Assembly: GCF_000374405.1 (NCBI RefSeq)
Contig: NZ_KB894229.1
Coordinates: 62,001-126,000 of the forward strand
Source: Riemerella columbina DSM 16469
GTDB taxonomy: Bacteria > Bacteroidota > Bacteroidia > Flavobacteriales > Weeksellaceae
Direction: 5' to 3'
Length of the DNA stretch: 64,000 nt
This document shows positions 17,524 through 17,877 of this stretch, one piece after another. Numbering within the stretch: position 1 is the first letter of the stretch; every line of letters starts with the position of its first letter. The notes beneath the pieces were generated by a model. That model did not search any database and had not been told where the DNA came from. It worked only from the letters and a program-made list of their open reading frames with translations. Made by a program: the position numbers and the translations under genes.

Positions 17524-17572
17524 AAAATTTAAATTTAAAAAGTTGATATTTGCTTATTAAAAAACACAAAAA

Positions 17573-17600
17573 GCCCCTTTCGAAACTTTTCGAAAGAGGC
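17573..17600 (-). terminator. Terminator or attenuator hairpin ahead of the secreted-protein operon
   Basis: Inverted repeat with arms 17573-17582 and 17591-17600 (nine pairs, one mismatch) and an 8-base loop. On the minus strand it is followed by TTTTTGTGTTTTTT. It lies 50 bases before the ATG at 17523 and downstream of the small leader ORF, so it either ends that leader or attenuates the operon. Confidence 0.7.
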
Positions 17601-17635
17601 AATAATTGTATGTAATGCTAAATTTAGTGTATAGC

Positions 17636-17863
17636 TTAAGCGTGTTTTCTACAAAATAAAAAACAGCAAAGCTTGTATATTTTAAAAGTTTTGTAAATAT
17701 TACGCGCGTGCACAAGAACGGTCGCCCTTGTGTGTGTGTGTGTGTGTGTGTGTGTGTGTGTGTGTGTGTTTACACAATTTTCTGAGACCACCAAATTATT
17801 TTGGAAGTTTTTGCCTAAAAAGTTTTGGTTTGCAGTAAGTGCTATGTTCTCAGTTCGTTTCAT
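17636..17863 (-). CDS. Small leader ORF with (CA)n repeat, possibly phase-variable
   Basis: A 75-codon ORF starting MKRTENIALTANQNF at ATG 17863, six bases after a perfect -7 box, with a Thr-His dipeptide run encoded by the CA repeat. In the present frame it stops at 17636. If one CA unit were added, the frame would stay open for 102 codons, through the hairpin at 17573-17600 and its T run, to a TAA at 17557-17559 in present coordinates. If one were lost it would stop ten codons after the repeat. No homologue is recognised. It may be a leader peptide, a contingency gene or non-coding. The rest of the 455-base gap (17864-17979) holds only the promoter box. Confidence 0.35.
   Translation of the reverse strand: MKRTENIALTANQNFLGKNFQNNLVVSENCVNTHTHTHTHTHTHTRATVLVHARNIYKTFKIYKLCCFLFCRKHA
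17729..17769. repeat. Dinucleotide microsatellite (TG)20T
   Basis: An uninterrupted 41-base TG tract on the plus strand (CA on the minus strand). It is flanked on the left by alternating purine-pyrimidine sequence (ACGCGCGTGCAC at 17702-17713), so the whole stretch is prone to slippage and to Z-DNA. Confidence 0.97.
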
Positions 17864-17869
17864 CGCTGG

Positions 17870-17877
17870 CAAAGATA
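17870..17877 (-). promoter_or_regulatory. -7 box ahead of the repeat-containing leader
   Basis: Complement reads TATCTTTG; six bases separate it from ATG 17863, the same spacing as at recJ, mraZ and the HAD gene. No convincing -33 element. Confidence 0.45.

Follow-up and report, generated by a model that had tools for sequence, protein, structure and literature searches.

Can the number of units in a dinucleotide repeat decide whether the genes behind it are transcribed? The question is raised by a locus in a 64,000-nucleotide stretch of the genome of Riemerella columbina DSM 16469 (hereafter the window; C13:62001-126000 of a 2.44-Mb draft assembly in 67 contigs), for which an earlier note had proposed that slippage of a (TG)20T tract sets whether translation of a short leader passes through a terminator in front of a secreted-protein operon.

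Anatomy of the locus

The tract matches (TG)20T at 100% over its 41 bp and is the only one of its kind in the window (Table 1). The surrounding elements are as the earlier note had described them: the TAnnTTTG box ends six bases before the leader ATG (17863-17861), the hairpin (GCCTCTTTCGAAAAGTTTCGAAAGGGGC) is present and is followed by TTTTT, and the operon has no exact promoter box of its own, the minus strand between the hairpin and 17523 carrying zero exact TAnnTTTG matches; near-matches with five of the six fixed bases start at 17626, 17537 and 17531. The two genes assigned to the operon are present as stated, and a third, which the note had left out, probably belongs to it too. The product of gene 1 had zero Pfam or NCBIfam matches at 0.001, and its N-terminal motif resembles the consensus of downstream proteins in Weeksellaceae.

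Table 1 Features of the repeat-containing leader and the operon behind it (window coordinates)
Feature	Position	Strand	Remarks
Leader -7 box	17870..17877	-	TATCTTTG (TAnnTTTG), Bacteroidota type; only exact match on the strand in 17400-18100
Leader ORF, present repeat number	17636..17863	-	ATG 17863, stop 17636-17638; peptide MKRTENIALTANQNFLGKNFQNNLVVSENCVN(TH)n...
Pre-repeat core	17771..17797	-	AATTTGGTGGTCTCAGAAAATTGTGTA, conserved; 17 copies in own genome
(CA)n repeat	17729..17769	-	41 nt; alternating Thr/His codons in the leader frame
CGCG-rich motif, post-repeat	17702..17711	-	same kind of motif in 69/94 loci
Stop codon at one CA unit fewer (OFF frame)	17700..17702	-	frame arithmetic
Terminator hairpin	17573..17600	-	12 bp stem, predicted -17.2 kcal/mol; 3' T run from 17572 downward
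ON-frame stop TAA	17557..17559	-	past hairpin and T run; gene begins 33 nt on
Operon gene 1, secreted protein	16864..17523	-	219 aa; N-terminal motif GRVGINTTSPKATLDI
Operon gene 2, DUF5977	15771..16850	-	359 aa; domain match
Probable operon gene 3, HU-HIG DNA-binding protein	15357..15740	-	placed in the operon by order and strand

The frame arithmetic of the note was likewise reproduced. With the present repeat number the leader stops at 17636, ahead of the hairpin; with one more CA unit it stops at 17557, beyond the hairpin and the T run, and with one unit fewer at 17700. The loss of two units leads to the same stop as the gain of one (17557). The window locus thus reads as OFF in the present assembly, although the length of a tract is not reliable in a draft assembly, and a gain of one CA unit is predicted to turn it ON.

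A known RNA family was considered for the locus and rejected, since Rfam searches at the gathering score gave zero curated matches there; in the window as a whole they gave only a SAM-II riboswitch (2551-2609, minus strand, 69.6 bits) and two tRNAs. Imperfect tandem repeats of 14 and 39 bases are found at 8224-8352.

A multi-copy leader family

The window locus is a member of a multi-copy family rather than a one-off. The genome contains 13 CA/TG tracts of about seven or more units, all within one conserved element composed of a promoter box, a short leader ORF, the (CA)n repeat, a CGCG-rich motif and, if the contig extends far enough, a gene for a secreted protein; the presence of all 13 tracts in the same element indicates that the window tract is more than a chance repeat. 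An exact TAnnTTTG box lies upstream of the repeat in 13/13 long-tract copies, and in all 13 an ATG ORF whose C-terminal end is NLVVSENCVN or close to it precedes the repeat. In the 12 other long-tract copies (12/13) a TTG lies 18-20 nt upstream of the box; the window copy lacks it, which speaks against that particular copy. The gap from box to ATG is 6 or 8 nt in the seven window-genome loci tabulated (7/7). Genes of the MKK...GRVGINTxxPKATLxI kind follow the copies where the contig is long enough, and seven copies entered the locus table described below.

A search with the conserved core gave 17 copies in the window genome, namely the 13 long-tract copies, two running into a contig end and two with a tract of just 9 nt. 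The latter (L036 on contig C65 and L032 on contig C24) are OFF by frame and are perhaps locked switches. Contigs C1, C2, C17, C46 and C66 begin or end in or near the element. The core pattern of the window genome had 0 copies in five congeners; a diverged core, TTTGG..TTCCAAATAATTGTGTAA, had 30, 18 and 2 copies in three of the congeners (14, 14 and 2 of them inspected) and 0 in the other two.

Among Weeksellaceae, tracts of at least 8 units fitting the first pattern were found in 11/296 genomes, and a second pattern matched 6 of 13 chosen genomes, Bergeyella zoohelcum ATCC 43767 included. A scan of one genome per species (84,980 genomes) for GTGTAAAC plus repeat yielded 94 stretches, all of them (94/94) Bacteroidota by title. 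They span 47 organism labels, which include Bacteroides, Phocaeicola, Prevotella, Alloprevotella, Alistipes, Odoribacter, Parabacteroides, Butyricimonas, Paraprevotella and Candidatus Coprenecus; pattern scans of this kind miss versions with other flanks. Relatives occur in R. anatipestifer, Bergeyella and scattered Bacteroidales. Presence throughout the phylum was rejected, a 19-base version occurring in 1/395 evenly drawn Bacteroidota genomes, the window's own. The patchy distribution points to transfer or to repeated loss. No plasmid matched 15700-18500 in a near-identity search, and a scan of viral sequences gave one contig, whose locus looks the same as L009 of the window genome.

Terminators and reading frames behind the repeat

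The 153 tract records were reduced to 137 by removal of duplicates of the same locus, and to 94 loci by setting aside 31 without a downstream ORF of 110 aa in reach, 6 with N between repeat and gene and 6 without an ATG leader. Prevotella HJM029 records were not counted as two assemblies. A strong terminator was defined as a hairpin of -12 kcal/mol or lower adjoining at least four T, between repeat and gene, all hairpin energies being predictions.

Strong terminators occur in 59/94 loci, compared with 1.4 in dinucleotide shuffles, 6 on the opposite strand and 17/78 in a second control, natural intergenic regions from the same records. The remaining 35/94 loci have no strong hairpin with T run, every tabulated Bergeyella zoohelcum locus included, and this counts against a reading of the family as attenuators. 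The longest post-repeat frame ends no more than 60 nt short of the gene start, or runs past it, in 71/94 loci (shuffles 16.7), the definition of the ON frame as the longest one favouring some of these counts. The second-shortest frame stops no more than 60 nt from the repeat in 70/94.

When a frame is taken to reach the hairpin if its stop is no more than 6 nt short of it, one frame does so in 46 of the 59 terminator loci and two in 13; zero or three never do. With shuffled upstream DNA, 36.5 loci are expected to have no such frame, 13.1 to have one, 7.8 two and 1.5 all three, so that the one-or-two-frame geometry is observed in 59/59 loci vs 20.9/59. The far end of the hairpin is passed by one frame in 42 loci, by two in 12 and by none in 5 (shuffles 9.3, 6.2 and 42.6); in L041, L049, L050, L064 and L166 the longest frame ends inside the hairpin or at its edge. 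The five loci with no frame past the hairpin count against the attenuator reading.

Compared with intergenic regions unmatched for length, the loci have more long-reaching frames (43/62 vs 29/64) and more terminators (35/62 vs 10/64). After length matching, the excess of reach is modest at 110-200 nt (18/22 vs 15/31 controls), and the counts are 17/18 vs 3/24 at 200-300 nt and 34/51 vs 1/23 at 300-700 nt. For terminators the matched figures are 16/22 vs 7/31 (110-200 nt), 7/18 vs 4/24 (200-300 nt, not significant) and 35/51 vs 6/23 (300-700 nt). The unmatched comparison of reach, the small margin of reach at 110-200 nt and the terminator counts at 200-300 nt weigh against the attenuator reading.

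Many of the loci are paralogues, and they were therefore clustered by the 10-mers that they share in the first 300 nt behind the repeat, which gave 33 clusters, one of them joining loci of TAE3 and the window genome through single linkage. By cluster majority, a long frame is found in 28/33 (9.4 expected) and terminators in 16/33, with the frame geometry in all 16. That strong-hairpin loci from 16 of 33 clusters all have the predicted geometry supports, as far as layout goes, the claim of the earlier note that repeat number selects the frame and that one frame leads through the terminator; the layout is present in all 59 strong-hairpin loci, and the mechanism is what we infer from it. The hairpin sequences mostly differ among clusters, which speaks for the layout having been selected more than once.

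A CGCG-rich motif follows the repeat within 60 nt in the 69 loci counted in Table 1, from Riemerella to Alistipes (shuffle mean 22.9, the motif list having been defined after inspection of the loci), compared with 1/94 in the next 60 nt and 2/94 in the 60 nt before the repeat. As a guess, the CGCG and GTGTAAAC motifs might be pause sites that let the ribosome catch up. A distinct local fold beside the repeat was rejected, the signal being weak: among the 33 cluster representatives the mean z was -0.63 for the 60 nt after the repeat and -1.11 for the 70 nt before it. At +61 to +120 the mean z was -2.05.

Variation of repeat length

Within genomes the tract measures 39-85 nt in the window genome (the two 9-nt copies apart) and 22-80 nt in Bergeyella. 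Within Riemerella, between genome G001 and genomes G002/G003, the tract lengths differ at all six syntenic sites compared, being 31/79, 31/41, 7/36, 47/9, 15/9 and 13/27 nt, with two of the six blurred by a tract followed by N and by an interrupted tract. The upstream flanks of these sites are 91-97% identical over at least 1,022 nt; downstream, three have no match at the threshold and three are 78-82% identical. The set leaves out the L201, L207 and L066 pairs, for which the wrong tract had been taken, and the L188/L061-L013 comparison at 76% identity; three loci in the comparison were missed by the motif.

Closer pairs were found elsewhere. L109 of Bacteroides gallinarum and L117 of B. propionicigenes share 99.2% identity over 3,900 nt downstream, and their tracts of 25 nt (predicted OFF) and 23 nt (predicted ON) are one CA unit apart. 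Two copies in B. mediterraneensis, L111 and L141, are 99.6% identical upstream and 94.5% downstream, with tracts of 39 nt (ON) and 43 nt (OFF), and L090 and L107 (Rikenellaceae/Alistipes) have 27 vs 19 nt, with 95.9% identity upstream and 98.0% over 303 nt downstream. The pair L076/L081 has equal tracts of 27 nt and 87% identity upstream. Near-identical pairs that differ in tract length speak for the attenuator reading, and the comparisons, which are between loci and genomes rather than within one isolate, suggest that tract length changes fast relative to its flanks.

The tracts of L108, L111 and L116 measure 23, 39 and 19 nt behind upstream flanks that are 98-99% identical, and their downstream regions have no match. 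Genes thus appear to have been exchanged behind a kept leader. In the pairs L100/L054, L125/L053 and L196/L182, too, upstream flanks of 94-99% identity stand before unmatched downstream gene regions.

When loci were scored as ON if the frame reaches the hairpin, or is the longest one where a hairpin is missing, 16/94 were predicted ON compared with 35.7 expected for equally likely frames. This deficit counts against the attenuator reading; it could come from selection for OFF during culture, from errors of assembly or from hidden biology.

Hairpin covariation and possible translation of the leader

In the Weeksellaceae bacterium TAE3-ERU29, nine of ten hairpins were aligned to a structure written by hand from the sequences (L089, whose hairpin lies elsewhere, was left out); all 126/126 cells are paired, and both sides have changed at 5/14 pairs. 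In the R. anatipestifer group 192/192 cells pair, with both-side changes in only one pair, and the covariation is less clear against shuffles (15/500).

No consistent excess of changes at third codon positions was found before or after the repeat, and in TAE3 the pre-repeat region has an excess at the second position (5, 14, 5). A coding role for the leader or the ON-frame peptide is for this reason disfavoured; an untranslated leader, too, could lack such a bias. In the first 220 nt of the long frame, gap runs in multiples of three make up 53/77 for the R. anatipestifer group, 24/35 for TAE3 and 10/10 for the window genome (four loci), but the long frame was chosen as open and frame-keeping gaps are thus partly built in. 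Pre-repeat, the window genome has 11/11; its post-repeat set is without L015, L019 and L020, which are the window locus and the two paralogues nearest to it. Over the full length the proportions are 40/54 in TAE3, 13/13 in the window genome, 4/7 in Bergeyella and only 52/190 in the R. anatipestifer group. A pre-repeat alignment across groups has 2/60 gap runs in threes, single gaps equalling double gaps in number. The many frame-keeping gaps, found together with no consistent codon-position bias, count for the attenuator reading; the 52/190 and 2/60 figures, and the chance that the leader is untranslated, count against it. The best reading of these alignments would be that it is the open frame that is kept, not the peptide.

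Downstream genes

The scan covered 83 of the 85 distinct downstream proteins without X, all but L103 and L138. The 47 Weeksellaceae proteins include 8 with Pfam matches to HU-HIG, 2 with collagen repeats, 2 with YadA heads and one each of two further families, and most are unmatched. Among the 36 Bacteroidales proteins the Pfam matches are to DUF3575 (5), OmpA (5), Pvc16_N (3), fimbrillin-like proteins (3), leucine-rich repeats (2) and M4 peptidase (2). Family-matched proteins are mostly of surface, secretion/injection-system or HU type, and none of the families listed for the 83 proteins (one NCBIfam list giving the best 25 of 30) belongs to amino-acid biosynthesis. HU-HIG is the first gene behind the leader in L041, L047, L049, L059, L066, L077, L151 and L153; there it is possibly a phase-variable nucleoid protein.

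Proposed mechanism and alternatives

The observations to be explained are the anatomy of the locus, its recurrence, the frame-hairpin geometry, the hairpin covariation in one genome and the differences in repeat number that near-identical loci show between related genomes. From these we infer transcription, termination, read-through and switching with its rate. We consider it probable that the locus is a phase-variable, translation-controlled transcription attenuator. The RNA would begin just upstream of the leader ATG, and the leader would be translated into the (CA)n tract, where the number of units would set the frame in which ribosomes leave it. In two frames they would stop before the hairpin, which would then form and end transcription (OFF); in the third they would cross hairpin and T run, the hairpin would be blocked and the surface-protein operon would be transcribed (ON). 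A ribosome in the ON frame would arrive near the start codon of the gene, and translational coupling may add to the effect. Slippage in the tract would flip the state at random.

Coupling could also be the whole of the matter, with ON-frame ribosomes re-initiating at the gene start and hairpins that play no role or only block initiation. In 60/87 non-fused loci the end of the longest frame falls between -60 and +20 nt relative to the gene start, 10 of these with a 4-nt ATGA overlap, and long frames without a strong terminator are found in Odoribacter L085, Alistipes L092/L137 and RUI210 L126/L140. We nevertheless judge this improbable, since strong hairpins with T runs far exceed expectation and, in one genome, covary, and since in Prevotella and some Bacteroides and Phocaeicola loci the longest frame, though it ends past the hairpin, falls 229-340 nt short of the predicted start; ATGA overlaps, for their part, often arise alone because many genes begin with ATGA. 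Rho-dependent polarity, in which untranslated leader RNA would be terminated by Rho in the OFF frames and protected by translation in the ON frame, would account for a long ON frame without a hairpin, for example in Bergeyella zoohelcum, but it is not needed for the 59 loci with intrinsic terminators, window included, and we give it little credence. Hairpin-less loci may use Rho or translational coupling.

His and thr leaders are amino-acid-sensing attenuators, and the alternating Thr and His codons of the tract would be suited to stalling ribosomes when charged tRNA is short. That the locus works in this way is very hard to believe, given downstream families that are mostly surface, injection-system or HU-type, with none for biosynthesis among those listed, and a length that varies widely; frame-specific stops would moreover be purposeless. 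A neutral microsatellite within a spreading repeat element, with no regulatory role, would be in keeping with the closely similar flanks of the copies, their position at several contig ends and the patchy distribution. The recurrence of differing hairpins and long frames at one position in 16/33 clusters, and the frame geometry in 59/59 terminator loci, make such a reading most unlikely.

On the attenuator reading a wider picture can be drawn, to which we give only tentative credence: a portable phase switch of Bacteroidota, in which one conserved leader cassette with up to about 30 copies per genome serves surface genes that are exchanged behind it and in several species drives HU-type nucleoid proteins as well, so that slippage would flip a chromatin-like regulator and its regulon besides single adhesins. 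If the attenuator reading is true, R. anatipestifer, a waterfowl pathogen according to the available part of PMC4335342, and its relatives would carry many randomly switched operons under one kind of switch, and each gene's ON/OFF state could be read off the sequence alone. Phase variation in the phylum is described mainly as DNA inversion, beside which a translation-controlled terminator would then stand, and the open frame of the leader would be kept for being translated, not for its peptide.

Comparison with known systems

In Neisseria, Haemophilus and Campylobacter, slippage in simple sequence repeats causes frameshift phase variation, the repeat lying in the surface gene or its promoter. 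In the CA leader, too, slippage in a short repeat would switch the frame, but the repeat sits in a leader ORF apart from the surface gene. In Bacteroides, members of the same phylum, surface structures vary in phase through invertible DNA in the account available from PMC11868660, whereas repeat slippage would be at work here. The accessible text of that 2025 review does not mention leader peptide, attenuation or terminator, and searches of the open-access literature, including passages of PMC11868660, PMC4060949 and PMC4335342, gave no description of a CA-repeat leader attenuator in Bacteroidota, most subscription papers lying outside their scope.

In Ornithobacterium hominis, also of the Weeksellaceae, 450-bp noncoding sequences adjoin the FSD adhesin genes (PMC10353427), for which the authors mention a putative phase variation mechanism in the available part of PMC13183296. 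The likeness, as far as the accessible passages go, is that of a near-identical noncoding stretch beside surface genes that breaks assemblies (PMC10353427; PMC6421346); the mechanism and the repeat are not described for it in those passages. Records of O. hominis were not among the CA-leader matches. The 450-bp repeat may be the same element.

The closest parallel is the pil1 operon of Streptococcus gallolyticus, where, in the portions available of PMC3894217, the number of GCAGA repeats within a leader ORF determines if translation extends as far as a premature terminator, a mechanism backed by terminator, start-codon and stop mutants. As far as pil1 and pil3 are described there, the CA leader shares with them a repeat inside a leader ORF, a frame that would decide the reach of a premature terminator and a surface operon downstream, and the ON state belongs to stops close before, within or after the hairpin. 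In our loci the repeat lies in a leader ORF upstream of operons whose families are surface-type in part and otherwise unmatched, and in 59/94 an intrinsic terminator stands prematurely before them, where some frames stop short and another reaches the hairpin. The CA leader differs from pil1, on the same partial account, in its CA unit, its Bacteroidota promoter and its conserved pre- and post-repeat motifs, in core copies numbering up to 30 in one genome, and in a leader ATG 6-11 nt after the box in most tabulated Riemerella and Bergeyella zoohelcum loci. By descent, judging from its CA unit and from CA-leader stretches that are Bacteroidota in 94/94 cases, the cassette is not of the pil1 family. 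By analogy, the mechanism fits that of pil1, and what would be new is another repeat in another phylum.
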